Below, in pieces: positions 31,063-56,021 of a stretch of 64,000 nt of DNA; position 1 is the first letter of the stretch; each line of letters opens with the position of its first letter. The notes beneath the pieces were generated by a model. The model was given only the letters and a program-made list of their open reading frames with translations. It had not been told where the DNA came from and made no database searches. The stretch spans positions 5,270,001 through 5,334,000 of the forward strand of contig NZ_PYFT01000001.1 in NCBI RefSeq assembly GCF_003023845.1, in the 5' to 3' direction. The position numbers and the translations under genes are program-made. Source of the DNA: Adhaeribacter arboris (lineage in GTDB: Bacteria > Bacteroidota > Bacteroidia > Cytophagales > Hymenobacteraceae).

Positions 31063-31172
31063 AATTTAGCTATTGTTTCTTCAAAAGGGTTCTAAATTTA
31101 AATAGTATAAAATATTAAAAGCAAAAAGAAATTAATATATAAACAAAAAATGTTTTTATAAAAAATATAATT

Positions 31173-31586
31173 ATGGCTGACGCAAAAATAATAAGTTCTT
31201 TTGTGAATTTCAAAACTAATGAAGGTCCCATTACTATTGAAGTAACAAGCGGATTCGCATCATTAGGGACATTTATACTTTCTTGTTCAAAAGTAGATGA
31301 TTTTGATTTCAAAGAGTTTGGAAAAGATCCCAAAAGAATCGATGATAGTATATTGGATATTTTCCAAGTTCCAATTGATCTGAAAGTAATTAGTAAATAT
31401 GAAGTTGCCATTTTAGGTAAATATGCACCTGCTCCAGGGCATGAGCAAATTAAAGTAAATTATAAGTTTATTCAAAACAATAAAGAATTAGTAATAACTC
31501 CTCCAGGTAGTAATATTATTGAAGAAAAATCCGATGAGCCGTTTAAAAGGTACACTAATTTTTTTAAGTTCGAAGAAAACGGATAA
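31173..31586 (+). CDS. Small soluble protein of unknown function
   Basis: 137 residues, no signal peptide and no membrane segment. The sequence begins MADAKIISSFVNFKTNEGPI and contains alternating hydrophobic residues suggesting beta strands. A recognisable motif or family is not apparent. It lies between the membrane protein at 29908 (111-bp gap) and the signal-peptide protein at 31607 (20-bp gap) on the same strand, with the same AT-rich codon use, so the three are probably one transcript. Confidence 0.7.
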   Translation: MADAKIISSFVNFKTNEGPITIEVTSGFASLGTFILSCSKVDDFDFKEFGKDPKRIDDSILDIFQVPIDLKVISKYEVAILGKYAPAPGHEQIKVNYKFIQNNKELVITPPGSNIIEEKSDEPFKRYTNFFKFEENG

Positions 31587-31606
31587 TAAATTTTTAAACA
31601 AAGAAC

Positions 31607-32665
31607 ATGAAAAAACTGTCATTATTTACTTTAATTATTATATCTGCCTTTACTTTAAGAGCTCAAGATAATTCAAAAAGTATCGCTGAAGCCACTAATT
31701 TTGCTGTGCCGTCATCACCTGCGTTTTTACTACTTGATGTTAATCCTACTAAAGTAAATAAACCAGGTTTTGCCCGTGATTTTAAATTTGATTGGGTGTT
31801 CCAAGGCGAAGGTTTAGCCCCAAATATTGCAATTGAGGCTCAACCTATTTGGCTATTATTTTACGATAAAACTAGTTTGAAGAATTATCAAGATCAGGAT
31901 TGGCTTCCTAGGACACTTTCTACATTGAGCGTTTCACTTGGAACTGTAGAGCAGGAAAATGTAAGCTCTTTAGCATTTGCTTTTAAAATAAATTTATACA
32001 GAGAGGCTGATCCTATAATGGACAATGCTTATATCAATAAAATAGCTCCTGTCTTTAGTGATAAAAATTTAGAATTAAGAATAGCATCTTTAGAAGCAAA
32101 AAAAGAACGAACAGGTGCATTAGACCAAAGTGAGCAGAGTGAGTATGGTTTATTGATTCTAAATAGAAACACCCTTGATGAAAAAGAAAGAGAAAGAATT
32201 AAGGAAGCACAAAAGCAATATATCAAAGATAATTGGAATGCCACATTGGTAGATATTGGTTATGGAAGGTCGTATAATTATAATAATGCTAATTTTAATA
32301 ATTTGGATTTTATAAGTAGTGGAAGTGGATTATGGATAAATGCGTGTAAAGGTTTTGGTAGAAGGACTCTCATCTCTGGATTATTAAAATATACCGATGT
32401 TGCTAGAAAAGAACAATATATGGGTGGTATAAATTTTCGGTATGGAAGCTCTAAGGTCAACTTCTTTGCAGAATGTGTTTACGAGAATATACCTGGAGAA
32501 GAAAGTAAAAGAGTGGATAGATATACATTAGCATACGGAGGTGACTATAGAATTCAACAGAATATTGCTCTACAATTTGGAGTTAGAACAGAATACAACA
32601 AAGATTTCAATTTAAATCAATTACGCCCTGTTGTGAATTTAAATTATATTTTAAATAAAGATTAA
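31607..32665 (+). CDS. Signal-peptide protein, possible outer-membrane barrel
   Basis: 352 residues. A typical signal peptide (MKKLSLFTLIIISAFTLRAQ, cleavage near residue 20) starts the protein. The C-terminal 130 residues have the alternating aromatic/Gly pattern of outer-membrane beta strands (for example GINFRYGSSKVNFFAEC, IALQFGVRTEYNKDFNL) and end in LNYILNKD. The middle (about 120-210) is charged and helical. It is 20 bp after the 137-residue gene. I do not recognise a family; an outer-membrane or periplasmic location is an inference from the pattern. Confidence 0.75.
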   Translation: MKKLSLFTLIIISAFTLRAQDNSKSIAEATNFAVPSSPAFLLLDVNPTKVNKPGFARDFKFDWVFQGEGLAPNIAIEAQPIWLLFYDKTSLKNYQDQDWLPRTLSTLSVSLGTVEQENVSSLAFAFKINLYREADPIMDNAYINKIAPVFSDKNLELRIASLEAKKERTGALDQSEQSEYGLLILNRNTLDEKERERIKEAQKQYIKDNWNATLVDIGYGRSYNYNNANFNNLDFISSGSGLWINACKGFGRRTLISGLLKYTDVARKEQYMGGINFRYGSSKVNFFAECVYENIPGEESKRVDRYTLAYGGDYRIQQNIALQFGVRTEYNKDFNLNQLRPVVNLNYILNKD

Positions 32666-32876
32666 CAAACAGTTTTAAGATAAATTTATTTCAGATTTCA
32701 ACTTACTGAAAGTAGGTTTAACTTTTTAAAGGTTTTGAAAAACCAAAAAATAATCACTGATTACTGCTCTATACTGAATTTAATGTATTCCAAAGCGGCT
32801 GAGTTTTTCCAATAATTATACAGTTAAATAACTCTTGAAATTCTATGTGAGTTATTTACCTTTTTTCTGTAAACAA

Positions 32877-33782
32877 ATGTCTCAATTTCAAATTGACCAC
32901 TTAATTTTGGATTTTTTGTGCCGGCGGAACAGGTTTTCTTTACCTCCTGAAGAAATGATTTTCTTAGGAGTACGAGGAGCCATGCCGGTAAATCCAGACC
33001 AACCTGCTTTTGCTGGTTCACACCAATTAATTTTGACTTCTATCGACCATCAGCATCCTCGGTGCACTTTGGTGCAATGGTTGCCATCCCAGCAAAAGCT
33101 GGCTGTTTATCCGGGTAGTACCGTTCCTCACCAAAGATATATCCGGCAGGCCAGAGCCGATGGTGGAGCAGGTGCCAACCAATTGGTAACCGGGTATTAC
33201 AAAGACTACCGCAAAGGAGACCATAACCTAGATTCGCCTACCCGGCATCGTGCCTTCCGGCAGATGGAGGCCCGGTACGTACAGCGAACCATTGATGATT
33301 TGGTTTATAAAACGGATGACCGGATGGAATTTAATAACCCTTTTGATAACCTCCATGCCGCTTGGTGCATGGGTGTAAACCACCCCGATTTTGCTAGCGC
33401 CGGATGCCAGGTGGTGGTAGGCTATCCGCACTGCGTAAAGCGAGGTGCATTGCCCGACAGTGGTCCGTGGGCTAGTTTTGTAGATAATGCTTATAAATTA
33501 GCTCAGGACCGGTTCCCCTATGTACTGCTTACCGGTCAGGATTATTTCCGGGCTGCTGCCGGCAATCTAGATGTCTCGGATTATCGGTTGCGGTTTGGTT
33601 CGGTTGGCAATGAGGTTAGAGAATTGCAAATGCGCCTGAAAAACAAACGTTTTTATGAAGGTATTATTGATGACCAATTCGGTCCGCGTACCATGAGTGC
33701 CGTATTTACTTTTCAGCGTGCTTCATTTGGTGCCGATGCGGCTGATGGTATTGTAGAACCAGTTACTTTAAGTGCTTTATAA
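32877..33782 (+). CDS. Peptidoglycan-binding protein with possible L,D-transpeptidase-like fold
   Basis: 301 residues from ATG 32877. An upstream TTG at 32835 is less likely. The last 65 residues are a PG_binding_1 domain (LRFGSVGNEVRELQMRLK then DDQFGPRTMSAVFTFQ). The central region contains NPFDNLHAAWCMGVNHPDF followed by ASAGCQVVVGYPHC. The histidine then S-x-G-C spacing is reminiscent of YkuD-type transpeptidase sites, but the rest is not clearly similar. No signal peptide is visible. It is 211 bp after the barrel-like gene. Codon use is less AT-rich than the neighbours, so it may have a different origin. Confidence 0.7.
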   Translation: MSQFQIDHLILDFLCRRNRFSLPPEEMIFLGVRGAMPVNPDQPAFAGSHQLILTSIDHQHPRCTLVQWLPSQQKLAVYPGSTVPHQRYIRQARADGGAGANQLVTGYYKDYRKGDHNLDSPTRHRAFRQMEARYVQRTIDDLVYKTDDRMEFNNPFDNLHAAWCMGVNHPDFASAGCQVVVGYPHCVKRGALPDSGPWASFVDNAYKLAQDRFPYVLLTGQDYFRAAAGNLDVSDYRLRFGSVGNEVRELQMRLKNKRFYEGIIDDQFGPRTMSAVFTFQRASFGADAADGIVEPVTLSAL

Positions 33783-33783
33783 A

Positions 33784-34266
33784 AGTAAGCTGATTGTTAA
33801 AAATACGAATGACAATAAATTGGATCAATTAATTAAAGCTTTTGACACTTCTAAAATTAAGGACAAGATTGATAAATATTACATCATTATAATTATTAAA
33901 TAAATATAAGTATCTCAGTCTAAGTCTTTAAAGTTAATTCCTGCTGAATTTAATCACTATTTTGGTATAAGAGAAAACAATTTTGATAATAAGTTCGAAT
34001 TTTTGATACTATTTTCAAAAATTTATAGGCAAAACCTACAGATTTATGTGGTAAGTATCCTTACTATTTATCAATTAATAAGGGTTAGTTATACATTTTG
34101 ATCTAGTGAAGTTTACGATAATTTTGTGAAATTGATAATCAATCAAGATAGAAGCACTAGGACCATTGAAACTCAAAAATTTGCAGGTATTTTAGGTGTA
34201 AGAGATTCTACGAAAGTTTCTGTTAGAAATACTGATTCAAAAAATACTTTAGAAAAAAATAAATAG
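33784..34266 (+). pseudogene. Decayed gene in one frame with three stops
   Basis: One frame is open in pieces: KNTNDNKLDQLIKAFDTSK then KIDKYYIIIIIK, two TAA stops near 33900-33910, then QSKSLKLIPAEFNHYFGI onward, a TGA near 34099, then SSEVYDNFVKLIINQDRST to a stop at 34266. The composition is that of coding sequence. The start resembles SMEK-type domains (TNDNKLDQLIKAF, IKDKIDKYY), but this is a weak similarity. The stops and short length make it a remnant. It belongs to the AT-rich island. Confidence 0.5.
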
Positions 34267-34389
34267 AACAGGAAGGACTCCAACAAAGGCCGCCTTCTTC
34301 AGGGTTGAACAGAAAAATAGAATCTGAATAGTTTTATTCCCATTTTAATAAGACTACAATAAAGCCTTCTGAATAAATAATGATGTATC

Positions 34390-35304
34390 ATGGATTTAGG
34401 GTTAAAAGATATTGGATTTACATTTATTGTGGGAGCTATAACAATTTTGGGCTTTGAACTTATTCTTTTTTATTTTCTTAATACAAACATTACTGGTTTT
34501 TTTTCTGGTAAAATCGGCTTAGGTGTTGCACCAAAAAAGTCTAAACTTAATGCTAATACTACAGGATCAAATAATCAAATGGAAAGTATAATTGGAACGA
34601 GCGGGTTTCTTTTATTAAGTTTTACAATAGGAATAATAGTTGAAGATGCATCATATAAATTTATGGATCCTGATAAAATCCCGATTTTTGAAGAATGGTT
34701 GTCAAATATCTATCCTCAGAGAAAAAAAATGGATGTAGCTAGTGTTCATGTGTTAATGAATGATTGTGATAAACTGATACCTAATTCATTAGGAAAGGAT
34801 TTAGCAAGAGTAAATGCATTTACTAAAGGGCTATATCATCCAGATTCATATAAAAGAGATACTATCAATCAAATAGAACAATGGTTTGTCAACTCCAATC
34901 CGGAAAGTTCACCTATAAGGATGTGGCCTAAGTTTAACAAGTCAGTAGAAGGAGCAATTAAGGGGTTGTATTACGTTGCTAAAAATACTGTTTTCTTAAA
35001 AGAAAATTATTACGATGAGTTAAAAAGAATCCAAAACAGAATCGATCTATCAAGATCATTATTAATTTTATCAGTAATTTACTTTTTTATATCTCTGCCT
35101 TTTGCAATTATAGCTTTATTTTATAAAGGATCAAATAGAATACCCCTTAGAAGTTATTTAATTGTATATATAACTTTTTTATCAGCTTGGTATTTCTCTA
35201 ACTTAGCTTATAGAAGAGAGTCAGAAGAATTTAACAAAAGAGTATTTGGCTATTTTTCAACTATGTTATTAAATGAAAGACTATTTAAAAGTGAAGGTAA
35301 ATAA
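34390..35304 (+). CDS. Four-helix membrane protein of unknown function
   Basis: 304 residues. Hydrophobic segments are near residues 10-31, 68-87, 222-245 and 254-275, so the 130-residue stretch between helices 2 and 3 forms one loop. Charged residues are abundant (RINQIEQWFVN, FKLKEN-like helices). No known family is recognised. The gene is AT-rich. Its neighbours are two gene remnants and a single-pass membrane protein, so it may belong to an abandoned accessory or defence locus. Confidence 0.7.
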   Translation: MDLGLKDIGFTFIVGAITILGFELILFYFLNTNITGFFSGKIGLGVAPKKSKLNANTTGSNNQMESIIGTSGFLLLSFTIGIIVEDASYKFMDPDKIPIFEEWLSNIYPQRKKMDVASVHVLMNDCDKLIPNSLGKDLARVNAFTKGLYHPDSYKRDTINQIEQWFVNSNPESSPIRMWPKFNKSVEGAIKGLYYVAKNTVFLKENYYDELKRIQNRIDLSRSLLILSVIYFFISLPFAIIALFYKGSNRIPLRSYLIVYITFLSAWYFSNLAYRRESEEFNKRVFGYFSTMLLNERLFKSEGK

Positions 35305-35385
35305 TTTATTTTAAGAAGAATATAGCACAAGCAGTTCATACAACTTAAAAGTAGTTAATTCATAGTACAATAATATAAAGCCATT

Positions 35386-35761
35386 ATGGATGGAAAAATA
35401 TACCTCCAGAAATATTGTACTCTCTTAAGTTTTATGATAGAACAGCTTTCTAGCTTAGAGTATTACTAATCATTTTAGGTCTGTTAGCTATTATATCATC
35501 AACCTTTGTAACTGCTCTCCTGGATAAGGGTTATGTTAGCAATTTTGTAATTCAGATCTTATCCTTTGTTTTTGCTATCACAATCGCAATCATTTCAGCT
35601 TTCGGGATAAGTACCAAAGGTATTAATGCAAGACGAGCATATAGGGTATTACTAAATGCTATACTGTTATACAAATCAGATAAATTAGATATTGAAGGTT
35701 TAATCAAGATGCATTTCCAAGCAGAGGAAATTTTAGGTTCAGTAGATTTTACTTCTAAATG
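35386..35761 (+). pseudogene. Frameshifted small membrane protein remnant
   Basis: A coding-like frame reads NIPPEILYSLKFYDRTAF, meets a TAG, then continues with LLIILGLLAIISSTFVTALL, NFVIQILSFVFAITIAIISA (two hydrophobic segments) and ends EEILGSVDFTSK at 35761. A start ATG at 35386 is in another frame, so at least one frameshift plus one stop have occurred. Two transmembrane segments followed by a short tail resemble small cytoplasm-facing membrane proteins such as SLATT-type, which is only a guess. Confidence 0.55.
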
Positions 35762-35780
35762 AAATTGATCAATACTTTTT

Positions 35781-36317
35781 ATGGATGATAATACGAAGAA
35801 CATACTTGAAGTGGCTTTTCAAGGTATTCAAGCGACTGTATTAATTGCAAGTGCGTTTTGGGCTTATTTTCGTTTTCGGCAAGAAACGCCTTTACACCCA
35901 CGAATTGAATTTGACGTTAAATGCGTTCTTTATGGACCTCACCTTAATAATTATCTAGCTACTTTTACAATTACAGCTAACAATAAAGGTAATGTTGAGC
36001 ACAGATTTAGTGAAATTCGGTTAAAGGTGCTAGGAATAAAAAATAATGAACCTTTAACCGAACATATAGAATTTACCCCTTTAATTAATTTTCCAGATAA
36101 AATAATTAGAGGAGTAAATATAGTACCATCTAGTTTCGGATATTTTTTTGTGAGACCTAGCGTAAATCAAACTTTTAATTATGCAATTAAAATTCCGGAA
36201 CATTATCGTTTTATACTTGTTAGAGCTACTTTTAAATACCAGCAAAATGGCGATCTTCATACGGCTGAAAGAGTATTCGAAGTGAAAGCAGAAACAAACC
36301 AACACATTCAATTATAA
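35781..36317 (+). CDS. Single-pass membrane protein with beta-rich domain
   Basis: 178 residues. One hydrophobic segment near residues 12-28 (FQGIQATVLIASAFWAYF) precedes a domain of alternating hydrophobic residues that looks like a beta sandwich (about 40-170). No family is recognised. It starts 20 bp after the end of the frameshifted remnant, whose downstream neighbour it probably was in the original operon. Confidence 0.7.
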   Translation: MDDNTKNILEVAFQGIQATVLIASAFWAYFRFRQETPLHPRIEFDVKCVLYGPHLNNYLATFTITANNKGNVEHRFSEIRLKVLGIKNNEPLTEHIEFTPLINFPDKIIRGVNIVPSSFGYFFVRPSVNQTFNYAIKIPEHYRFILVRATFKYQQNGDLHTAERVFEVKAETNQHIQL

Positions 36318-36407
36318 TTTTAAAGTGTCACTATATTTAATTTAGGTTTTAATGGCTTTTAAAATAATTAAAGCCTGAAACGTTATTGTTAGTTGGTTAT
36401 AACTCAC

Positions 36408-36800
36408 ATGCTGTTAAATATGAAAGTTGAAATAGTAGATAAAGATGTTCGGTTTTATAACTATATAGTGGATGTGCTAGCTATCATATTTTTAACTTTA
36501 TTCTTATCAGTATTCGCTAATTATTTTTTATATATCTACTCTACCCTTATCTTTCTTTGATTTTAGGTAGTCTACTTTGTATATTATTTTACCATGGAAT
36601 ACAGTTGCCACAAAACTTTAGGTAAAATGGTGACCAAAACAGTCGTTGTCCATAAGAGTGGAAGAGAACCTTCCTTAGGTAATTATATTGTTAGAACTTT
36701 TTTTAGAATTGCCACATTAGACGTTATTTCCTTTTTACTAGGAACTAAGATTGGCATGCATGATATGCTTTCTAATACGAGGGTAGTTAAAATTCAATAG
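36408..36800 (+). pseudogene. RDD family membrane protein, frameshifted
   Basis: The first frame (ATG 36408) reads VDKDVRFYNYIVDVLAIIFL, then ends at TGA near 36558. The second frame, from about 36567, contains EYSCHKTLGKMVTKTVVV and SNTRVVKIQ and runs to 36800. Together they match RDD proteins, which have an N-terminal RF-Y-D helix and the pattern EYxxxKTLGKxxTKxxVV. A frameshift and small deletion separate them, removing part of helix 2. RDD proteins are small membrane proteins of unclear function, some linked to ion transport. Confidence 0.75.
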
Positions 36801-36937
36801 TAAGAAGTTTTAAGCATTTATTTGTTTATAAAATTTCCAAACGGGAGTTATACCTTTTACTAAAGGTACAATTGTCGAAAGGTTCTTGGAGCAATTAAGA
36901 AGTAAACATGTAAATTCAAGGCTCGTATTTATTAAAC

Positions 36938-36980
36938 TCTTATTTTGTATTTGTCAGCCACTGACAAATACAAAACAAGA
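36938..36980. terminator. Strong bidirectional hairpin
   Basis: 20-bp stem (one mismatch) with a 3-nt loop CCA: TTTTGTATTTGTCAG and its inverse CTGACAAATACAAAA, plus a further TCTT/AAGA. It lies between the RDD remnant and the end of the minus-strand gene at 36996, which converge. It can end transcription from both sides. Confidence 0.8.
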
Positions 36981-36995
36981 ATGGCAGAATTACCT

Positions 36996-37910
36996 CTACA
37001 TACCCGTCAGAGTAGCCGAAACAACTTCTCCGTCCACTAGTAAGGCGCTGATGTAGCCCAGCGAAGATTCAATGCGGACGTCGGTGCCAATGGCAGCGGC
37101 AGGTTGCGCATAACATTTGCCGTTGGCTATTTCTTTGGCTAAAGTTTGGGCAGGGCTATCTAGTACACTTTCTTTCCGGATAACAGGGGCATATTCGTGG
37201 CCGGAAATTACTTGGGGCAATACTTTCTCAAAGGCCGAAGTATTCGCAATCAGGTCTACGGATGGTTCGCCGTTTACCTGTAAAAGTACGCCCTCGGCGG
37301 GGGGAAGAGGCAGACCGGAAGGAAATACCCGGTTTTTGCTTTGGTTGCGGTGATACATGTCCTCAAAATCGCTGGAAGAATTATGCAAGCCGCTGGAACT
37401 GGAATACGCTTTTATTTCGGACCAAACCCTACTTTGGCTCCCAAATGAACTTTTACAATACATTATTTCTTCCCGCATGGCTTTGCGCAAATTAATGGGG
37501 GAATGATGCGCCGATTTTTCAAACGTGGACGAAGTTCGGCGCCAACGACCTTGTTCGATGCAGCTGGCCGGAATAATGTGCCTGGATAAAGGCGGAATTA
37601 ATTGGGTAGCATTAATTACCCGGTTTTGCTTGCCACCTTTTAATAGGGTGCCTTCGTAGATTAGTAAATAGCTGTTGCTTAAATTAGAAATAGTTAGTTC
37701 TTGTACCGAGCCCGACTCATCTATCTCGGATACTTCTACCAGCTTTTTTTCCAAGGCTTCGGAAAATTCAATAACGGGCTTAGAAAAAGTTTGGGGCGTA
37801 TGAATGGTAAATACCTGAATCTTGGCGACATCCGCCGAATAGTCAAAAGGTTTGAAGTCACAAGCCAATATATAATCGGCCAACTGGGTTTTATAAGCAG
37901 TAGTTTCCAT
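36996..37910 (-). CDS. DUF6569 / ARPP-1 domain protein
   Basis: 304 residues. The core pattern LLIYEGTLLKGGKQNRVINA followed by the HIIPASCIEQGRWRR segment near residues 112-126 is the signature of the ARG-and-rhodanese-phosphatase-associated domain (ARPP-1, now DUF6569). This family occurs near signalling and antiphage-like genes, and its biochemical role is unknown. The gene is monocistronic, ends at a strong hairpin, and has ordinary codon use. No signal or membrane segment is seen. Confidence 0.8.
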   Translation of the reverse strand: METTAYKTQLADYILACDFKPFDYSADVAKIQVFTIHTPQTFSKPVIEFSEALEKKLVEVSEIDESGSVQELTISNLSNSYLLIYEGTLLKGGKQNRVINATQLIPPLSRHIIPASCIEQGRWRRTSSTFEKSAHHSPINLRKAMREEIMYCKSSFGSQSRVWSEIKAYSSSSGLHNSSSDFEDMYHRNQSKNRVFPSGLPLPPAEGVLLQVNGEPSVDLIANTSAFEKVLPQVISGHEYAPVIRKESVLDSPAQTLAKEIANGKCYAQPAAAIGTDVRIESSLGYISALLVDGEVVSATLTGM

Positions 37911-38009
37911 AGGTTTTTTTTTGATTGATTACCTAAACTGCTTAAAGGTTACAGGGGCATCCTACATTTTTTTTGTTAAGAGATTAAAGAGTTACCCCAT
38001 TTATTAAAT

Positions 38010-38666
38010 TCAGTCTTCTGCCTGAAGCGGAGCAATAGGCTGATTTAATTTTAAAGAATATTCTTTGGCTTCCATTCGTAGTTTAATAACTTCTTGGTTC
38101 TCTTTTTTATGGTAAAGGAGAATGAGTTTAGTTGGGTCAAAATCGCCGTACAAGAGTAATAGGGTATTGATAGTAGTTGGGTTATATTTACTAGGCACTA
38201 CTTTAAACCGGTAATGAAAGGTTTGCGACCCGGAAGCCGGAAAGATTTTTACAAACGGAAACAGGTTTTTCCCGGCAGCAGATGTAATGGGAAAGGGTGG
38301 TTTGGGATCTCCTTCGTAAGTAATGGTAATATCCGGGTTAGGAGTTGGACGTTCAAAGCTTTTTTCAAGGAATTCCCGGGGAGCAGGTTCTCTATAAGCC
38401 TTCGCCGCTACTCGTTCCACCTCCTCAAACGACTGCCGGGGGGGCCATTGAAAAGTACCTTTATCGGTAATATCCCTCTGAGCCTTCTTTAAAGCACGTA
38501 GAATTTCATTTTCTTTAATGAGTAAGATCGTCTTTTTCTGTAATTCTACTTCTCTTAAAAACACAGGGTCCGCTTTCAACCTTTGCTCAAAAAGTTGCAG
38601 TTCCTCTCCTGAAAGTTCTTTTCTTAAATACCGGTCAATTAAATGTAAATTCTCTGCTGCATTCAT
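38010..38666 (-). CDS. Soluble anti-sigma-like protein
   Basis: 218 residues from ATG 38666. A longer frame starts at 38684, overlapping the sigma gene by 14 bp. The N-terminus (LHLIDRYLRKELSGEELQLF) resembles the Bacteroidota anti-sigma N-terminal helices. Unlike classic anti-sigma factors no transmembrane segment is visible anywhere, and the C-terminal half is Pro-rich then beta-strand-like. It follows an ECF sigma gene and so probably controls it, but a different cytoplasmic role is possible. Confidence 0.6.
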   Translation of the reverse strand: MNAAENLHLIDRYLRKELSGEELQLFEQRLKADPVFLREVELQKKTILLIKENEILRALKKAQRDITDKGTFQWPPRQSFEEVERVAAKAYREPAPREFLEKSFERPTPNPDITITYEGDPKPPFPITSAAGKNLFPFVKIFPASGSQTFHYRFKVVPSKYNPTTINTLLLLYGDFDPTKLILLYHKKENQEVIKLRMEAKEYSLKLNQPIAPLQAED

Positions 38667-38670
38667 GTTT

Positions 38671-39219
38671 TTAGTTGAATACATCTTTTAGCTTTTGCAT
38701 ACACCTGAATTTCTTAACTTTAAGGGCGTTGGTGCTGGAATAAGGAATAGATTGGGCGATTTCTTCTAAACTTTGATTAAGATAGTAAAATTTTCTCAGA
38801 ATTTCCTGGCATGACGCATCTAATTGTTCAAAAGCTTCTCGGAATCTTTTCTCCAAAAGCATATCTTCTTCTTCCGGCAGGTAATCCGGAATATCAATGT
38901 AATCGTTGGTATCAATGATTTTAATAATGGCTAGTTTACGTTTTTTAAGTTGGTACAGCCATTTTTTACGGCAAATAGAATAAATATAAGTGGACGGCGC
39001 ACAAGTAAGCACAAAATCAGGCTGAAGCAGTTTTCGGAACAGGACAACGGAAGCTTCCTGGAGTAAATCCTGGGCATCTTCATCCTGTCCGTTATTTAAA
39101 TGAACAAATCGGATTAGGGAGGGTAAAGATTTGCAATAAAGCTTTTCGTAAGCTTTGGTTTCCCCTTTTCGCAGGGCATTAGTTAGCTCTTCATTTGTCG
39201 GATTACTTTCTGGGTCCAC
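38671..39219 (-). CDS. ECF RNA polymerase sigma factor
   Basis: 182 residues from a GTG start (39219). Region 2 is seen in DAQDLLQEASVVLFRKLL and region 4 in SLEEIAQSIPYSSTNALKVK. The length and domain order fit extracytoplasmic-function sigma factors of Bacteroidota. It is directly upstream of and almost overlapping the anti-sigma-like gene. Signal and regulon are unknown. A REP-like palindrome lies 261 bp upstream. Confidence 0.85.
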   Translation of the reverse strand: MDPESNPTNEELTNALRKGETKAYEKLYCKSLPSLIRFVHLNNGQDEDAQDLLQEASVVLFRKLLQPDFVLTCAPSTYIYSICRKKWLYQLKKRKLAIIKIIDTNDYIDIPDYLPEEEDMLLEKRFREAFEQLDASCQEILRKFYYLNQSLEEIAQSIPYSSTNALKVKKFRCMQKLKDVFN

Positions 39220-39479
39220 ATTTTTTCTATTTTACGTAATAAACCATTATTATTTGGCTACTACGTATTTGTACCCAATTTGTGCTTAAAATTTTAAGTA
39301 GTTTTACGATAATTATTAAGAGTATCCGTGAATAGTTTTCCCGTTTTCAAAGACTAGAGTTTAACGCCGGGAAATGATCCTACTAAGATAAGTAAGGTTG
39401 AAAAAGGTAACAGATTTTAAATGATAGGTTATTTATTTCGAAGGGTCAGGGTTGTTAAGTTCTCTACTGTCTAAGCTGG

Positions 39480-41934: not shown

Positions 41935-42050
41935 TTATGGTTGCTTGTAGCTTCTTGTTTATTGGTTAGCTAGCGCGAAGGCCTATCCTTTTAATTTGCC
42001 GGATGAAACCACTAAATCCAGAAGCATTTATCGGAAGAAATAGGCAAATT

Positions 42051-42112
42051 GGGAGCAAATAAAAAAGCCACTCACAAGTTTTATCTCGTGAGTGGCTTTT
42101 TTATTTGCTCCC
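42051..42112. terminator. Perfect inverted repeat with tRNA tail
   Basis: 25-bp perfect inverted repeat (42051-42075 and 42088-42112) with a 12-nt loop. The arms contain GCCACTCAC and an A/T run, so it is an intrinsic terminator of the tRNA gene on the minus strand and also reads in the plus direction. The outer 7 bp (GGGAGCA) are the tRNA 3' end itself on one side and a mirror copy on the other. Confidence 0.85.
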
Positions 42113-42154
42113 CCTCTTGGGCTTGAACCAAGGACCCCATGATTAACAGTCATG
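42106..42154 (-). other. tRNA-Asn 3' fragment (integration attachment site)
   Basis: On the minus strand 49 nt fold as a perfect anticodon arm (CATGA, loop CTGTTAA with anticodon GTT, TCATG), a variable loop and a perfect T arm (CTTGG, loop TTCAAGC, CCAAG), then the acceptor 3' strand ending GGGAGCA. No D arm or acceptor 5' strand precedes it; the sequence upstream (toward 42160) does not continue the tRNA. This is what remains at one end of an element integrated into a tRNA-Asn gene. The element is expected to extend rightward, starting with the integrase. Confidence 0.85.
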
Positions 42155-42303
42155 TGGAGGTGTGTTATTGTTATTTATATTTTTTACTAAATATTATGTT
42201 TAAATGTAATTTAAGCGGTTTCTTGTAATTTTTAGAACTGTTTAATTATTGCTTTTAATTGCAAATGTATGTAATTTGTATGTAATATTAAAAGCCAGCA
42301 TCA

Positions 42304-43941
42304 ATGTCTAAAGTTACTACTGAAATTGTTCTTAATAAACGGATACCAATGAAAGACGGAACTTTTAGAGTAAAACTCCGAGTGACTTATCTAAGAAAAC
42401 AGATTTATTATCCAACTAAATTTACCCTTTCAGAAAGTGATTTTGAGAGGACCAGATCTATAAAGCCCAGGGCAGAATTTAAAGATCTTGCTCTTAGTTT
42501 CAATAAAATAGAAACTAAGGCCAAAGAAATAATTGATAGATTACCAGCTTTTACCTTCGAAGCCTTCGAAAAGCGCTTTTCAGATACCTCGGATAGAACT
42601 GATGTTTTTTCTGCTTTTGATAAACAGATACAAAAGTTAGAGGAGGAAGAAAGAGTTGGAACTAGAGAAAGCTACGAATCAGCCAGAAATTCATTAATTT
42701 CTTTTGTTAAGAGAATGCCACCTTTTTCTACTAAGGGGTTAACTAAAGATCAGATTGCTGCCAGGAAAAAAGAGTTCGAAGTAAGGCCGCCGCTTCCATT
42801 TATTAATGTTACTGTAGAGTTTTTGAAATCCTATGAAAAATGGATGAAAAAACACGGCCGATCCCGGACAACCATTGGTATTTATTTGCGGCCGTTGCGG
42901 GCACTATTCAATGTCACCATAGAAGCGGGTGATCTGAGTAAGGAATTCTATCCTTTTGGTAAACGTAAATATAAAATTCCTTCCGGAAGCAATGTAAAAA
43001 AAGCCCTAGAAGAGGAAGATATTGCCTTACTATTCAATTACCATTCCGAAAATGAAAATGAATTATGGGCTCGGGATATGTGGATCCTGACCTATTTAGC
43101 TAATGGGATTAATATGAAAGATATTGCCCACTTAAAGAATGAAGATTTAGATAAAGAACATATAACTTTTATCAGAGCTAAAACGGAGCTTACTACTATT
43201 GAAAATCAGAGGCCCATTATTGTTACCATTACTCCACTCATCACAGAAATTATTAAGCGGTGGAGAAGTGCAGATTACTCCCCAAGAGCTTTTGTTTTTC
43301 CAATCTTAAATAGAGGAATGACCCCTAAGGAAGAGCATAGCAAAGTAAGGGACACGGTAAAAAAGGTAAATAAATACATCCGACAAATTGCCCAAAAGCA
43401 GGGAATTGAGGATGATGTTACCACCTATGTGGCTAGACATTCTATGGCGACTGTACTAAATGATGCTGGGGTACCAACCTCCTTCATATCTGATTTATTA
43501 GGCCACGGAACAGAGAAAACTACGAAAAGTTATATTGATGGAATAAAAAGTGGGAAGCGGGCTGAGTTAACGATACATCTAACCACATTCCTAGAGAAGG
43601 AGGCACAGACTCAAATAATAGAAAAGGAAGATCCGTTAGCATCGACCCTAAAAGTATTGCTAAAACAGAAAGTAGCCCCACCAAAAATTAAATTAACTTG
43701 TATTAAAACTTTAGAATATGCGGGAGGGGAGTTTCTAAAAGGGAATGTAATAGTTTTTCAGAATAATAAGCACTTAGTAATTACTGATCCACAAAACATA
43801 GTATTTCCAGATTCTGAATTTACCTCCAACTATGGTTCCTTTATCTATTTAAATCAAATTGCAGAATTACTACTGGCTGGAACTACTGGTCAAATAAAAG
43901 AGCATTTTAAAGTTGAACTTATCAACGATGTAATTAAATAG
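42304..43941 (+). CDS. Tyrosine recombinase/integrase
   Basis: 545 residues. The N-terminal Arm/SAM-like region (about 1-230) includes the 'FRVKLRVTYLRKQIYYPTKF' strand pattern. The catalytic domain has TYVARHSMATVLNDAG (H-x-x-R region) and LLGHGTEKTTKSYID (His and nucleophile Tyr near residue 417). The first-arginine region reads NGINMKDIAHLKNED, a pattern common in Bacteroidota integrases that deviates from the usual Arg. A long C-terminal extension of about 125 residues follows the Tyr. It is 150 bp from the tRNA-Asn fragment, so it probably inserted the element there. Confidence 0.88.
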   Translation: MSKVTTEIVLNKRIPMKDGTFRVKLRVTYLRKQIYYPTKFTLSESDFERTRSIKPRAEFKDLALSFNKIETKAKEIIDRLPAFTFEAFEKRFSDTSDRTDVFSAFDKQIQKLEEEERVGTRESYESARNSLISFVKRMPPFSTKGLTKDQIAARKKEFEVRPPLPFINVTVEFLKSYEKWMKKHGRSRTTIGIYLRPLRALFNVTIEAGDLSKEFYPFGKRKYKIPSGSNVKKALEEEDIALLFNYHSENENELWARDMWILTYLANGINMKDIAHLKNEDLDKEHITFIRAKTELTTIENQRPIIVTITPLITEIIKRWRSADYSPRAFVFPILNRGMTPKEEHSKVRDTVKKVNKYIRQIAQKQGIEDDVTTYVARHSMATVLNDAGVPTSFISDLLGHGTEKTTKSYIDGIKSGKRAELTIHLTTFLEKEAQTQIIEKEDPLASTLKVLLKQKVAPPKIKLTCIKTLEYAGGEFLKGNVIVFQNNKHLVITDPQNIVFPDSEFTSNYGSFIYLNQIAELLLAGTTGQIKEHFKVELINDVIK

Positions 43942-46247: not shown

Positions 46248-47291
46248 TTAGGGACTCACCCCACTCTCCAATAGGGAAAATATTTTCCGGTCCCCATCAA
46301 TTTGGGCCATTACTCCGTACGGAAGCGTAAAGGTAGGGCAAGTGTGTCCAAAGTCCATTTCGGTAATTATGGGTAATTGGTCCTGGCCTTGTTCCTCCCG
46401 GATGACCTCTAACAGTAATTGATTATACTCGGCCGTATACTTATTATCATAAGGTCGTCCCACCAAGAGTCCGGATATTTTTTGGAATATTCCTTGGGCC
46501 GCATAGTTTCGGAGGATGCGCCGGAAATAAACGGGCTCCATGCTTTCTTCGGAAGTCTCCAGAAACAAAATGGCTCCTTGCCATTCGGCGGGACTTAACC
46601 AAAAATCAGTTCCTTTTAAAAACTCTAAAACCTCCACACAGCCGCCCAAGAGACGGCCTTGGACTTGCCCGCGGCCTTGCAAATAATTCCACCCACGATT
46701 AGGATTTAGCTTCCGTTTTACCCCTTGCAGGGCTAAATCATTCCAATCCTGATGTTCGGAGGTCCACCCACTTCCATTTGGCCAGACCGGCCCAATGGGC
46801 AATGTCGAAAAAAGAGTACGCTGGATATCGGCAATTTGATAGGGATGCATCCCGCCGTTTTCGGCAAAGCCCACTAACAAGGAAGTACCATAAAAGGAAG
46901 TTAGCCCCGCCTTATAGCACGCCCAATGGGTAACGGTGGTATCGGAAAAGCCCAAGAATATTTTGGGGTTGGCTTTGATGATTGCTAGGTCGGTGTAAGG
47001 TAAGGTTCGGATGCTGTCCTCGCCGCCGATGTTAGAAATAATGGCTTTGATGGACGAATCGGCAAAAGCTTCCATCAAATCCTGCGCCCGAACTTGGGGA
47101 TTTTTAGCCAGAAACTCAGCGGATTTTAAGGCGTTCGCTGTTTCGACCACTTGTAACCCAAAAGTTTGCTGGAGTTGTTTCTTTCCTTGGTAGTAACGGT
47201 GCACCAAATCCCCGGCTCCTCCCCAGGAAAGCGAAATTGTGGCTACTTTGTCACCTGGTTGGAGTAATTTAGGTTTAAGAAGTGATTTCAT
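46248..47291 (-). CDS. S66 family peptidase (LD-carboxypeptidase/MccF-like)
   Basis: 347 residues from ATG 47291. A longer frame starts at a TTG at 47342. The nucleophile Ser lies in GFSDTTVTHWACYKAG near residue 104, the Glu in LETSEESMEP, and the catalytic His in MDFGHTCPTFTLPYG. The region AIISNIGGEDSIRTLPY is typical. S66 includes LD-carboxypeptidase A (murein recycling) and MccF, which detoxifies microcin C. MccF-type members often have a loop pattern like the GPVWPNGSGWTSE seen here. It is monocistronic, with a hairpin at 47418-47456 upstream. Confidence 0.85.
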   Translation of the reverse strand: MKSLLKPKLLQPGDKVATISLSWGGAGDLVHRYYQGKKQLQQTFGLQVVETANALKSAEFLAKNPQVRAQDLMEAFADSSIKAIISNIGGEDSIRTLPYTDLAIIKANPKIFLGFSDTTVTHWACYKAGLTSFYGTSLLVGFAENGGMHPYQIADIQRTLFSTLPIGPVWPNGSGWTSEHQDWNDLALQGVKRKLNPNRGWNYLQGRGQVQGRLLGGCVEVLEFLKGTDFWLSPAEWQGAILFLETSEESMEPVYFRRILRNYAAQGIFQKISGLLVGRPYDNKYTAEYNQLLLEVIREEQGQDQLPIITEMDFGHTCPTFTLPYGVMAQIDGDRKIFSLLESGVSP

Positions 47292-48135
47292 AAACTGGCG
47301 ATTAAATGGCCGAATGCTATCCTTAACTGGCTGTTCCTTCAAGAGCAGGAAGGAAGCTTAGAGGAACGAGCAATAAGTACTATTTTCCATAATAAAAAGA
47401 AAGATAAAGAAGGTAAACCTGGCTGGCAATACTGATTTTTCAGTATTGTTACCAGGCTAGCTACTATCTCCTGATGAGCAGATAGAAGGCCTAGGTCCAA
47501 AAAAAATGTTGGATCAAGTCTCGTTCTAAATGGGGAAACGATAAAAAGAGTCTTGACCACAGCCCGTTGTTTTGCCAGTTTTAGTAAAATTGTTAAGCAT
47601 CTCGGCCTAGTTTTTAAGCCTACCTTACGGGAAGGGCTTGGTCTGGAGCAGGCATGATATAAACTTGATTATCTCATGCCTATCTCAGTAGAGTCAAACA
47701 TTTTCGTTTAGAGCTCTAGCCGCTTAGAGGTGGGCACTCCCGTTCTATTAGCTTTCTTGATGCTTTCTTTTAGGAACTTGCTTGGTGATGACGGAAAAGA
47801 AAGAAGGTCAACGTAAAAAAGACTAAATTTTATGAATATTTAATTAGGGAGGCTATTTCGACAATAGATAGGCAAAAAAGTCAATTGGAAACGAAGAATA
47901 AAGGCTTAAAAAAGTATACGTATTAAGTATTTAATCGAAGTTTTAATCAGTAAATAAACGAGGGGTAGATTACTGGAACTGTATTGTTAGTAAAGCACTA
48001 GCAAAGGCACAGGAAAAAACCTAAAGTTAGCAGGTAGTATAGTCCGGCAATAACCTGACTTAATTTTTCAGGCAATGACCGTCTTTTTGAGAATATAGCA
48101 AGCCATTTAACATAAGGGTACTTATAGAACCCGGG
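47292..48135. other. Long intergenic region with hairpin
   Basis: Part of the 985 bp between the S66 peptidase gene and the LRR gene. At 47418-47456 a hairpin has 9-bp arms CAATACTGA and TCAGTATTG with a TTTT loop and outer CCTGG/CCAGG pairing. It is about 130 nt upstream of the S66 start, so it may be a 5' untranslated regulatory fold. No coding frame or RNA gene is recognised in the rest. Confidence 0.45.
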
Positions 48136-48188
48136 TAAGTTCCGGAAATAGCTTTATCCTCTGAGGATAAAGCTATTTCCGGAACTTA
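48136..48188. repeat. 53-nt perfect palindrome
   Basis: 26-bp perfect inverted repeat with a single-nucleotide loop (T): left arm starting TAAGTTCCGGAAATAGC and right arm ending GCTATTTCCGGAACTTA. It lies 89 bp downstream of the LRR gene stop (minus strand). No T run follows, so it may not be an ordinary intrinsic terminator. Confidence 0.9.
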
Positions 48189-48276: not shown

Positions 48277-50607
48277 TTATTCCACCACTAACTTCAGCTG
48301 CTGGACGCTCTTAGCTGCCTTCAGTCGAGCCAGGTACACGCCTTTCGCTTGTTTTCCCGCCTGCCATTCTACCTGCACGTGTTCCCCGGCCTTAGCTGTG
48401 CCACTCGGCAGTTGACTCACCAACTTACCCGATAAATCATAGATGGCTAAAGTATACTCCTCATCCTGGTTGAAGGTAAACTCTAAGGTCGTCTTCTCGG
48501 TGAAGGGATTGGGGTAGTTCTTAAACACCGGTAAAGTTTTTTCTGTTATGGCTAGTTCTACTCCAGGCACACTCAGGCGGGCCACCGCCGCTTGGCTGGT
48601 TTGAATCAGGATAAATCCCACAATAGCGGTAGCAGGATCGGCTGTTTCGGCGGTGTTACTTAAGTTGTTGTCGTAGACGATCTGGTTACCCTTGTCTTTG
48701 TTCCAGATTTTGATGCGGAACTTATCCGGCCGGCCATCCAGAAGAGAAACTAAGAAGCCGTAATTGCCCTGCCCATTGATTCTACCCCTACCGGTATAGC
48801 GGGCTTTGGTGCCACTGATAGTTAAAGTTTCGTAAACCGTACTGGCAAAAGCTAATTTTACTTTACCCGCTTTAAAGGCGAACAAGGTGCTGCCTTCGGG
48901 TAGGCTGGTGCCTTTTTTGTAGCGGGCGTACAAGCCCAATACGGCGGTTCCGGCGAGCTTGGTATCGGCTTTGTAGGCTTGTTTGGGCGAAGCAAAGCCC
49001 CCCGCACCGGTGATCGCGCCGGACTCGTAGACCACCACGTATTCGTACGTCGCTTGAGTCGTTTGTCCACAAGCATCGGTGACGGTGAGGATGGGCGAAT
49101 AAGTACCTGCCTTAGTGTATTTATGGTTACCTTGCAGGGTGTTACCGCTGATGATAGCCGGAGAAGTGCTGCCATCGCCCCAATTCCAGGTGGCGCTGCT
49201 AACGGTACTGCCCGAGAAAGAAACACTTAAGCTAACGCTGGTATTGACCGCTACCGGCGCCGTAGGAGCGGTAACTTCACCTAAGACCAATGCCGGTTTC
49301 ACCGTTAAAGTGGCTGCATTAGAGGTGACAGTAGTATAGGTTCCTATTACTTCAACCGAGTAATCACCCGCATCCTCTGCGCTTACTGCCTCAATGGAGT
49401 AAGTAGGGCTGGTAGCCCCAGGGATAGGCTTAGTTCCCTTTCGCCATTGATAAGTAAGGTTAGAGCCCGTAGCTTCTACCTGAAAGATAGCCTTTTCGCC
49501 GGTACAGACGGTAACGTCATTGGGCTGAGCGGTGATGGTAGTCGGAGTACAGGCCGCTTCTATTTCGGCGGGGCTGGTGCAGTTGGTGGCATTATTGGAG
49601 ATGTTGACCGCACCTTCAGTCGCCTGAATAACCGACAGCAACCGGCAGCATTGCGAAAGTTTAGCATTATCACGAACGTAGAGATCGCTTCCCACGGAAG
49701 TAAGCTTTTCCAGTCCGACCAGGCTAGTTAAATTACTATTATTATTAATAGAGAGATCTCTACCCACAGAGGTAAGATTGTCCATGCCAGCCAGGCTGCT
49801 CAAATTATAGTTCTCAAAAATGGTGAGACCTCCTCCCACGGAGGTCAGCTTTTCCAGTCCGGCCAGACTGTTCAGACTATTGTTGCCCGTAATGGAGATA
49901 TCCCCTGACATAAAATTACCTCCTACAGAAGTAAGCTTTTCCAGTCCGGCCAGACTGCTCAGACTACCGTTGAAAGTAATGGCGAGATATCCCACGGAGG
50001 TCAGCTTTTCCAGTCTGGCCAAACTGCTCAGACTATTGTTATCAGAAATGATGACTGCTCTCGAGGAGGTAAGGTTTTCCAGCCCGGCTAAGCTGCTCAG
50101 ACTACTGTTATTACTAACAACGAGGTTTCCTGCCACCGAGGCAAGGTTTTTCAGTCCGGCCAGGTTGCTCAGATGACTGTTATTAGTAATAACGAGACCT
50201 TCTCCCACCGAGGTGAGGTTTTCCAGTCCGGCCAAACTGCTAGAACCAGGTATGGAGTAGAGGCCTAAACTAGTTTGCTCAACACGGAATGGTCCTCCCA
50301 CTTTGGTTAATATAGCCAGGGGCCTAAGATCATAAATGCCTGAACCCTGAATAGTAAGATTGCCGGTTACTTCGGTATAGTTAAAGGCATTTACCTGCGC
50401 CTGAGTGCTTAAAATCATAGGACCATTGTAGATTTGGGCTTGTAACAGACGGGGGTATAGCAGCAGTAAACCCGCTACTACCCAAAGGCAAAAACTGGTT
50501 TGAAACTTTTTCCCGCTCCCCAGGAGCCACTCCGCCCCTACTGGATGCGGTAGGCGGTTTACTAGTATAAGATTTTTCATTTGTGTGAAATTTTTCAGGT
50601 GTAACAT
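48277..50607 (-). CDS. Secreted LRR/Ig/PKD protein with T9SS sorting domain
   Basis: 776 residues from ATG 50607. TTG 50637 and ATG 50580 are alternatives. A signal peptide ends at about LLQAQ (hydrophobic LWVVAGLLLLYP). Then come about eight leucine-rich repeats of 23-27 residues with the core SLAGLEKLTSVG (about residues 100-330), an Ig-like domain (TITAQPNDVTVCTGEKA), a PKD domain (SATWNWGDGSTSP), a further beta domain, and a type A T9SS sorting domain (FKNYPNPFTEKTTLEF ... GVYLARLKA). It resembles cell-surface adhesion or sensing proteins. It is downstream of the hybrid sensor gene and transcribed in the same direction. Confidence 0.88.
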   Translation of the reverse strand: MLHLKNFTQMKNLILVNRLPHPVGAEWLLGSGKKFQTSFCLWVVAGLLLLYPRLLQAQIYNGPMILSTQAQVNAFNYTEVTGNLTIQGSGIYDLRPLAILTKVGGPFRVEQTSLGLYSIPGSSSLAGLENLTSVGEGLVITNNSHLSNLAGLKNLASVAGNLVVSNNSSLSSLAGLENLTSSRAVIISDNNSLSSLARLEKLTSVGYLAITFNGSLSSLAGLEKLTSVGGNFMSGDISITGNNSLNSLAGLEKLTSVGGGLTIFENYNLSSLAGMDNLTSVGRDLSINNNSNLTSLVGLEKLTSVGSDLYVRDNAKLSQCCRLLSVIQATEGAVNISNNATNCTSPAEIEAACTPTTITAQPNDVTVCTGEKAIFQVEATGSNLTYQWRKGTKPIPGATSPTYSIEAVSAEDAGDYSVEVIGTYTTVTSNAATLTVKPALVLGEVTAPTAPVAVNTSVSLSVSFSGSTVSSATWNWGDGSTSPAIISGNTLQGNHKYTKAGTYSPILTVTDACGQTTQATYEYVVVYESGAITGAGGFASPKQAYKADTKLAGTAVLGLYARYKKGTSLPEGSTLFAFKAGKVKLAFASTVYETLTISGTKARYTGRGRINGQGNYGFLVSLLDGRPDKFRIKIWNKDKGNQIVYDNNLSNTAETADPATAIVGFILIQTSQAAVARLSVPGVELAITEKTLPVFKNYPNPFTEKTTLEFTFNQDEEYTLAIYDLSGKLVSQLPSGTAKAGEHVQVEWQAGKQAKGVYLARLKAAKSVQQLKLVVE
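49660..50250 (-). repeat. Tandem DNA repeats encoding LRR units
   Basis: Within the secreted LRR gene, copies of about 66-80 bp share near-identical words (AGCTTTTCCAGTCCGGCCAG, CTGCTCAGACTA). They encode the leucine-rich repeats. Some neighbouring copies differ by few bases, so recombination between them could change the repeat number. Not a CRISPR: no spacer pattern, reading frame maintained. Confidence 0.8.
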
Positions 50608-50650
50608 TTTTAAATCAGGATTACCAACCTTTATCAAGCAAAGCCATTAG

Positions 50651-50969: not shown

Positions 50970-53900
50970 TTAGCGGGGCTGGGAAAGAGCGTATTCGGAG
51001 GGAGAAACAGAAAACTGCGCTTTAAAACACTTGGCGAAATAAGATAACCCTTCGAACCCTACCCGATAAGCGGTCTCCGCCACCGGATGGCCTTCCCGCA
51101 ACAGCACCGCCGCCTGACTCAACCGGTAATAGCGCATTAACTCATTGGCGTTCATGGCCGTGATGGCCGCTAATTTCCGGTGCAAGGTCCGGGTACTGAC
51201 GGCCATCTCGCGGGCGAGCTCGTCTACTAAAAAACCGGAGTTGGCCAGTTCCCGGTCCAGCACCTGATGGACTTGCCGCAGGAAGGGGTCTTCCGAAGGC
51301 GATGCTGGCTCTTCTGCCGGATTAGACAGGCTGAACTTTTGGCGCCAATATTGGCGCAGGGTCTGCTGGTAACTTAGCCCATTGGCCACGCGTAATTGTA
51401 ATTCCTGTAAGTTAAACGGTTTAATCAGATAATCGTTGGCCCCGGTGGTGAGCCCTTTCACCCGATCCTCCACCGAGGTCCGCGCCGTGAGTAAAATAAC
51501 GGCGATATGGGTAGTAAGCGGGTTATTTTTAATGAGTTGGCTCAGGGTAAAGCCATCCATCTCCGGCATGGCTACGTCCGCAATTACCAAGTTGGGTAAT
51601 TCCTGCTGGGCTAGTTGCCAGCCTTCGGCGCCGTTTGGGGCGGTGAGTACCCGGTACTGCGCGGTCAATTCCTGGGCGATAAAGTGCCGCAGTTCCTCGT
51701 GGTCTTCTACCACCAACACCAAAGGTGCCTCCTCCGCGGATGGTGGCAGCGGCAAAGATACCGCTTCTTCCTCCGGGACAATAACTGATTGGGAAGCAAG
51801 CGGCCCGGCTGGAACGTTATTCCCTGCTATCCGGAGCGGAAGCACGACGGTAAAAGAACTACCTTTTCCTTCCTGGCTCTCGGCGGCTACGTGTCCACCC
51901 ATTAACTCGACCAGTTCTTTTACCAGAAACAATCCCAGGCCCGATCCGGCCAAAGCTGCGGTACGGGCATCAGTTACCTGATAAAACCGATTAAAAATAA
52001 AGGGCAACTGCGAGGCGGGAATACCTCTACCGGTGTCCCGAACCCGCAACTGAAGTTCATACGTTTCTTCCCTGGAGGCCGGAAGATTTACTTCTACCCG
52101 CACCTTACCTCCCGATGCCGTAAACTTTAAAGCGTTGGCCAGCAGGTTATAAATAATTTTCTCTAGTTTTTCGGCGTCAAAAATATACTCCACCGATGCA
52201 CCGGTGAAAACGTATTGCAACTGGACACCTTGCTGCTCCGCCGCCGGGCGAAAAGATTCGACTATCTGCTCCACCAATAAAGTTATTTCTCCCCTCGATT
52301 CATCTAAAATCATATGACCGGCTTCCAGTTTGGCCAAATCTAGCAGTTGGTTAATCAGGCGCAACAGGCGCTGGGCATTTCGGAAGATGACCTTGAGTTG
52401 CGGCTTGATAAGCTCGGGCGGGGGCAGCGTCGGCTGCGTACATAACGGTTCCAGCGGACTGATGATGAGCGTTAAAGGCGTGCGGAACTCATGGGTAATG
52501 TTGGTGAAGAATTGTGACTTCATTTGTTCGAGTTCCCGTAGCTTTTCCTGCTCTAAATGCTCGAATTTTAACTGGTTTTGCAATTGGAGGCGCTTGAATT
52601 GCGACCAGAAAATAATCCCTATAATCGTGAAGATGACAAGCGCATAAAACCCATAAGCAACCGGGGTAAGGTAAAAAGCTTGCCCTACTTCAATGGGAAG
52701 GCGTAACTCTTTCCCCCAGATACCACTGCTATCCATACCTTTAATGCGCAGGGTATACTTTCCCGCTGGCAAACCGGTAAATTGGATATAATTTTTGGCA
52801 CCGATAGGTTGCCATTCATCGGTAATGCCCACTACTTGATAGGCAAACTGGGGAACATTAACATCATCGAAATAAGCTTGCAGGGCAAAATAAACGGTAA
52901 AGAACTTGTCTTTATAATGGAGCTGGATGTTGCGAATCAGATGGGCGGCTAATGCATTTTCTTCTATCTTATTTTTAGTACCCCGGTGCTGTACCAGTTT
53001 GGTGAGGATGACCCGGGAGACAGCAGCTGTTGGCCGAAACTGCTCCGGATCAAAGGCTACAATACCGTCCAGGGAACCAAAGTATAAGGTTCTATCGCTG
53101 CCCGCCCAAGCCGCGCCTGGATGAAAGGTATTATTCGGCAAGCCGTCTTTAACCAGAAAATTCCGGAAGGTTTTCTGCTGGCGATCCAGTCGGGATAATC
53201 CATTATCGGTGCTAATCCAGAGTTCGCCGGCCTTGCCCGGTAATATGGCACAGACAATATTGTTAGCTAAGCCTTCTTTTATCGTGTAAGTCTCTTCTAT
53301 CTGACCATTTGCCGGATGGAGGACGTTAATGCCGCCACCTTTGGTCCCTACCCACAAGCGGCCGTCCAGACCTTCGTATAAGCAGGTAATAAATTCATTG
53401 GTTAAACCCGCACGTGGATTTTGTTCTGCAATGGCCGCAAAGTAGCCGGTAATACTTTTACCTTTTACGATGCGGTATAAGCCGTAATCAGTACCCACCC
53501 AAATGGATTGGTCTTTCGCCTGGTACAGGGCCATTATTTGCAGGGAGGAGAAGGGCTGTTTGGTTTTTCCCCAGGTAAAAGGCAGGGCCTGCTTGGTTTT
53601 GGGATTAAAAAGATAAAGATTATTGTTCCCTCCTAGCCACAGCTGCCCATCGGTGTCTCGTAAGAAAGAATAATTGAAGAGAGAAGCCCGCTCTTCGGGT
53701 TTCAGGTCGTCCGGAATAGCGGGTTGGGAAAAGGTATGAGATTTAAGATTAAAAGATAAAACCCCGTTCCCTTCCGTGGCCACCCAGAGATTGCCGTTGG
53801 CCGCGGGCACAAAAGCTTTTACCAGCGGATTATACCAATTGCTCCAGCCACGGCCTTGTTTAAACATTTTATATTCCTGGAATCTTTTCGTGAGAGCATT

Positions 53901-55058: not shown

Positions 55059-55103
55059 CAGGAAGAGATAAAGGAGGTTAATATCTAAAGATACTCTTTT
55101 TAC

Positions 55104-55991: not shown

Positions 55992-56021
55992 AAGAGCACC
56001 GGAATCAATTCTCCACCAGAG

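Follow-up and report, generated by a model that had tools for sequence, protein, structure and literature searches.

A genomic island in the tRNA-Asn gene of Adhaeribacter arboris and the probable role of the anticodon stem in the targets of its integrase family

Islands that lie between an intact tRNA gene and a displaced 3' fragment of it, with a tyrosine integrase inside, have been collected by Islander, and 2,083 of 3,919 such islands are centred on the anticodon (PMC4383910). The anticodon loop has long been noted as an overlap at tRNA sites (PMC8371274). In Bacteroidota, the integrases of CTnDOT and NBU1 have an arm-binding domain and lack the first catalytic Arg, which in the IntCTnDOT subgroup may be replaced by a downstream, conserved Arg (PMC8138268). 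A title cited in that source places the integration of NBU1 at the 3' end of a tRNA (Leu) gene (PMC8138268). A 10K island beside a tRNA-Arg gene of Riemerella anatipestifer encodes an IntN1-like integrase that was shown to integrate and excise (PMC6764341). Related integrases of archaeal pT26-2-like plasmids switch among many tRNA genes, with the overlap at the anticodon loop in some, and a review of archaeal recombinases states that the way in which integrases change their target is not fully understood (PMC8371274).

The window analysed here is a stretch of 64,000 nt (G000:C1:5270001-5334000), where G000 stands for the 7.25-Mb genome of A. arboris in two contigs. The element in it has the ends, the internal integrase and the anticodon-centred site of the Islander islands (PMC4383910), but it also restores a terminator hairpin, its paired arm sites are defined at both ends, and a stem-based target rule appears to hold across its family. 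It resembles CTnDOT and NBU1 in its arm-binding domain, its host phylum and its Arg pattern (PMC8138268), but differs in that no conjugation or mobilisation gene was found in it and in that the targets are Asn and other TG/CA-stem tRNAs. The R. anatipestifer island is likewise a Bacteroidota island at a tRNA gene, but it is 10 kb long, has 53-bp repeats and was reported to excise without other island proteins (PMC6764341). Whereas the archaeal integrases are restricted by tRNA class, with or without an extra loop (PMC8371274), the present family would be restricted by two anticodon-stem base pairs.

Structure and cargo of the island

The first-pass annotation had described a 49-nt 3' fragment of tRNA-Asn with anticodon GTT, without D arm and acceptor 5' strand, about 150 bp from an integrase gene. 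The sequence agrees with this description. The minus strand of 42107-42156, CACATGACTGTTAATCATGGGGTCCTTGGTTCAAGCCCAAGAGGGGGAGC, contains the anticodon arm with GTT, the variable loop, the T arm and the acceptor 3' strand; the D arm and the acceptor 5' strand are absent. The fragment corresponds to tRNA positions 26-74 plus one base (26-75), and the exact repeat is thus 50 bp rather than 49; the distance to the integrase start codon (42304) is 147 bp. ARAGORN detected no complete tRNA in the 64-kb window. The last 43 nt of the fragment, with up to 3 mismatches allowed, occur at only two sites in the 7.25-Mb genome, the fragment and the complete tRNA-Asn, which indicates that the fragment is not a chance resemblance. 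The complete gene, expected at the right end of the element beyond the window, was located there 97,106 bp from the fragment on the same strand; it is the only tRNA-Asn gene of the genome, and its 3' end is the exact 50-bp repeat. The fragment lies on its 3' side in the same orientation, as integration into a tRNA gene requires.

Past the 50 bp, the repeat extends at lower identity through the adjoining terminator hairpin (96 bp in total, 89.6%). The hairpin behind the fragment is the displaced terminator of the original gene and lies outside the element; the matching hairpin behind the intact tRNA-Asn was supplied by the element. Rfam matches in the neighbourhood of the fragment, among them MIR9486 at 42044-42121, were rejected; they scored far below the gathering thresholds and reflect the near-perfect hairpins. 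Coordinates of the features are given in Table 1.

Table 1. Features of the island and its ends. Positions without prefix are those of the window; positions with prefix are those of the A. arboris contig.
Feature	Position	Strand	Remarks
Original terminator hairpin of tRNA-Asn, displaced	42051-42112	-	Outside element; inverted repeat, 28-nt arms, 96% complementary
Displaced tRNA-Asn(GTT) 3' half, left attachment site (attL)	42107-42156	-	Exact 50-bp repeat of intact gene
Part of the element in the window	42107-64000		Continues to intact tRNA-Asn at G000:C1:5409213-5409287
Left putative arm-type site pair, ATTACATACAAATTACATAC	42267-42286	-	Two ATTACATAC units, 11-bp period
Tyrosine recombinase, 545 aa	42304-43941	+	Pfam Arm-DNA-bind_5, Phage_int_SAM_5, Phage_integrase
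Two uncharacterised genes, 213 and 256 aa	44729-46176	-	No Pfam, NCBIfam or PHROG match
LD-carboxypeptidase (peptidase S66)	46248-47342	-	Pfam
Surface protein with repeats and a Por secretion (type IX) sorting tail	48277-50637	-	Pfam Recep_L_domain, PKD, Por_Secre_tail
Hybrid two-component system, AraC-type output	50970-55262	-	Pfam Reg_prop, HisKA, HATPase_c, Response_reg, HTH_18
Insertion-sequence remains: DUF772 transposase piece, rve/HTH_21 transposase	55274-56855	+	Pfam
RHS/YD-repeat type fragments	60481-62399	-	Pfam RHS_repeat, NCBIfam YD repeat
HTH protein, 119 aa, excisionase-type	G000:C1:5407376-5407735	-	Above curated excisionase-family cut-off
Right putative arm-type site pair, ATTACATACAAATTACATAC	G000:C1:5409146-5409165	Same orientation as left	47 bp inside intact tRNA
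Complete tRNA-Asn	G000:C1:5409213-5409287	-	97,106 bp right of fragment, same strand

The tandem 20-nt sequence ATTACATACAAATTACATAC occurs in exactly two copies in the 7.25 Mb, with up to 2 mismatches allowed. Both copies are located just inside the ends of the element, the left one between the fragment and the integrase gene. The integrase has arm-binding, core-binding and catalytic domains (PF17293, PF13102, PF00589). Asn270 (N270) replaces Arg I and is invariant across 13 aligned sequences, as are R291-x-K293, R378, H401 and Y410. These domains and the Arg I pattern fit the definition of the IntCTnDOT subgroup; we infer from its position which Arg is catalytic in this enzyme. The integrase is extended at its C terminus by about 110 aa (residues 435-545), a feature absent from all 12 aligned relatives. 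At the right end, the small HTH protein is probably an excisionase, to judge from its family score, and a 368-aa protein at the same end had no matches.

The repeat, the intact tRNA-Asn, the ends with integrase and excisionase-type genes, the ATTACATACAAATTACATAC pairs and an element in the same gene of the nearest relative (see below) mark the locus as a tRNA genomic island whose integrase is of the CTnDOT/NBU type. On the strength of both ends, the repeats, the genes and the recurrence in relatives, we consider it very probable that a 97.1-kb island has integrated site-specifically into the single tRNA-Asn gene. It qualifies as an Islander island: fragment and intact tRNA have the same orientation, the 3' fragment is downstream, the integrase is inside and the length falls within the range of 2-200 kb. 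The relaxase by which ICEs and IMEs are recognised was not found among 45 island proteins examined with Pfam; the single match of the genome to the relaxase family PF03432 is on contig C2, outside the island. Phage structural genes were also absent from the Pfam-scanned island proteins; PHROGs covered 10 proteins.

Among the cargo is a type I restriction-modification operon that has Schlafen-type and AbiV-type genes. The island also encodes a ThsA-like SIR2 protein, a Fic protein similar to SoFic, surface proteins secreted by the type IX route, adhesin cargo and sensor kinases, and it holds several insertion sequences. The surface-protein gene in the window contains tandem repeats of about 72 nt. 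Downstream of it, a perfect inverted repeat with 26-nt arms and a 1-base spacer (48136-48188) is probably a terminator. A copy of one arm of the tRNA-type terminator (about 85-89%) was also observed in mid-island at 58202-58228, in a stretch without long genes.

A direct repeat of 2,668 bp, 99.9% identical, lies inside the island (G000:C1:5343573-5346240 and 5404440-5407107, 60.9 kb apart) and points either to a second insertion or to duplication of a large internal segment. Its left copy adjoins hsdR and a 102-aa gene, neighbours that are also found at the right end of the element of the nearest relative, and the excisionase-type gene is beside its right copy. This arrangement, with the near-identity of the copies, is what accretion would give, in which a left part (to about 5,346 kb) was joined by a second insertion of about 58 kb marked by the repeat, perhaps through homologous recombination of a related circle. 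We put such accretion at slightly below an even chance. The Pfam-scanned genes include no second integrase, and neither an arm pair nor a third tRNA-Asn fragment, as a tandem array would give, was found inside the island; the same picture would result from an internal duplication and later activity of insertion sequences. With its many insertion sequences and the internal duplication, the element may no longer excise.

Elements and remnants in the tRNA-Asn gene of relatives

The nearest relative, G003, has an element of 54 kb in the same tRNA-Asn gene, with an integrase 45% identical to that of A. arboris and with other cargo. The right flanks of the two genomes are the same, their proteins being mostly 85-97% identical. 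Beyond the distal fragment of G003 there are endonuclease, inhibitor and 2'-5' RNA ligase genes, as in the left flank of the window. A size difference between relatives had been predicted, and it was found in these elements (97 kb against 54 kb); a clean empty site with both flanks was not found in any relative. Further tRNA-Asn elements measure about 43 kb in G012, 37 kb in G029, 25 kb in G021 and 15 kb in G026. The last is the smallest seen (L104:1736-16419, 14.6 kb). It encodes an integrase, an HTH protein, a D12 methyltransferase, a HerA-type ATPase, a PLD-TPR protein, SIR2 and DUF4365, and its cargo looks like defence-type genes only.

Pairs of repeats with an 11-bp period are present at both ends of all six tRNA-Asn elements (those of G000, G003, G012, G029, G021 and G026). 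The pair is identical at the two ends of one element, save for small changes in G021 and G026, and its sequence differs among most elements (TTTGCACAC, TTTGCATAC and GGTTTAAAC types). At the right end the order is the same in all six, namely the tRNA 3' half, the terminator hairpin and the arm pair; therefore, integration restores the tRNA gene together with its terminator.

Arm pairs also occur without an element. In G004, which has no relative of the integrase, tRNA-Asn and terminator are followed by one intact copy of the arm pair of A. arboris (L317, G004:C3:3754101-3754120), and in G002 by one copy with two mismatches (L316) and no integrase nearby. Intact or decayed pairs were seen behind the tRNA-Asn terminator in G004, G006, G001, G002 and G007; none was seen there in G005. 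Because the pair persists behind the terminator, these five genomes look like carriers of remnants of old elements, and the solo pairs are likely right ends left behind by lost elements.

A reading of the left flank of the fragment as plain backbone throughout was rejected, since several blocks of it match cargo inside the G003 element (5291.9-5292.8, 5296.7-5299.7 and 5308.7-5309.3 kb; window 21861-39288). On account of these matches, the flank appears to consist in part of island DNA of earlier date.

Targets and arm-type sites across the integrase family

One genome per species (84,980 species) was scanned and the best 80 relatives were taken, all from Bacteroidota save one Chlorobiota MAG. 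Upstream sequence was readable for 79 of the 80. In 71 of the 79, a T arm stood about 168-285 bp upstream of the integrase match and on the strand opposite to it, and a variant or decayed tRNA fragment was recognised by motif or by eye in 7 more. A tRNA 3' fragment thus adjoins the integrase gene in 78 of the 79 readable relatives, L178 being the one without it. Fragments of tRNA genes can arise by duplication and decay, and the fragment of A. arboris could on that account stand beside an integrase by coincidence. No observation favours such an origin, and we regard it as extremely improbable, given that the same geometry recurs beside nearly every readable relative, that the arm pair sits at the two ends of the element and nowhere else, and that five other genomes contain different elements of the same layout in the same gene.

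Across the family the target tRNAs are Asn, Met, Arg, Val, Thr, Lys and Ala. Counted together with the window and five relatives (76 labelled rows), the fragments have the anticodons GTT (25), CAT (16), ACG (11), TAC (6), TCT, TGT and CTT (5 each) and GGC (1), and two have a long variable arm. In two Spirosoma loci (L149 and L151), the integrase lies beside a fragment reading TGATT-TGT-AATCA with a long variable arm.

The bases C40-A41 were found in all 69 scored class-I fragments, and T33 was also invariant; in the element-side half of these fragments, T29 occurred in 57 and G30 in 60. The stem played no part in the selection, since the fragments had been found by their T arm. Exceptions are a decayed fragment, L141, which reads C40-T41, and L178, which has no fragment. 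The stem T29G30/C40A41 is borne by 9 of 39 tRNA kinds in A. arboris, 8 of 34 in Pontibacter qinzhouensis and 11 of 39 in Maribellus sp. YY47. Of the target kinds, A. arboris has seven, and every one of them falls among its nine stem-bearing kinds (hypergeometric, 2.3e-6). This comparison makes it quite probable that the anticodon stem, and not the anticodon, sets the target. No earlier statement of such a rule was found in the literature searched, a set that stood apart from papers on NBU1 site binding and tRNA sublocation.

The pattern of targets might instead reflect ancestry or the abundance of tRNAs. On a quick tree of the integrases the target label shows some clustering, with at least 37 changes against a shuffled mean of 45.9 (the least possible being 8). 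Against this account stand the 37 changes among 76 rows, which include two 95%-identical integrases of P. qinzhouensis, one beside an Asn and one beside an Arg fragment. In genomes with three or four CAT-anticodon tRNA kinds, the fragments match the kind with the TG/CA stem. In Maribellus sp. YY47 the tRNA-Asn has lost the stem and the element uses a CAT tRNA with a CA stem; Lys-CTT, a stem-bearing tRNA in Maribellus, is the target of a related Prolixibacteraceae element. Ancestry or abundance is accordingly an improbable account of the pattern, and we prefer recognition of the stem.

Repeats matching at 9 or more of 10 bases were found at 64 family loci with a period of 11 bp (43) or 12 bp (21). 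Control stretches, taken downstream of the integrase, gave 1 repeat at the 11- and 12-bp spacings and 3 at any spacing. Similarity of the arm motif was correlated with that of the arm-binding domain at r 0.44, and at 0.40 when the catalytic domain was partialled out (0 of 500 permutations). Its correlation with the catalytic domain was -0.02 when the arm-binding domain was accounted for. Because motif similarity tracks the arm-binding domain and not the catalytic domain, the pairs are read as sites of the former, for which this is good statistical evidence from sequence.

Proposed mechanism and meaning

We propose that the N-terminal domain of the integrase would bind the arm-type pairs just inside both ends of the element, and that the core sites would be the two sides of the anticodon stem (T29-G30 ... 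C40-A41), with strand exchange across the 7-bp anticodon loop. The copies carried by the element would replace the 3' half and terminator of the tRNA gene, and it is for this reason that the gene at the right end would be complete, while the original 3' half and terminator would have been displaced by 97 kb to become the fragment. The same integrase scaffold could then move to any stem-bearing tRNA by a change of the carried tRNA copy, since the anticodon triplet falls within the overlap, a region in which nothing but identity of attP and attB should matter. Binding, strand exchange, the role of the excisionase and the reason for target switching are deduced here from comparison of sequences. 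The mechanism appears to be ordinary tyrosine-recombinase integration, to which the comparison adds the stem as the thing that the integrase appears to read.

Taken jointly, the data favour, with some reserve, a reading in which this Bacteroidota integrase family would read only T29-G30/C40-A41 and leave the anticodon to overlap identity. The target would be changed by carrying another tRNA 3' half, with the integrase altered little or not at all, and the arm sites and the arm-binding domain would evolve as a separate matched pair. If this is true, two independent codes would set the target and the identity of the element.

As an island the element is unremarkable, whereas its integrase family offers a natural data set on change of target. 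Target switching is directly testable in it, because near-identical integrases occur at different tRNAs and the two-base-pair rule predicts the targets. The paired arm sites may allow the DNA recognition of the arm-binding domain to be decoded, and would make the ends and remnants of such elements easy to find.
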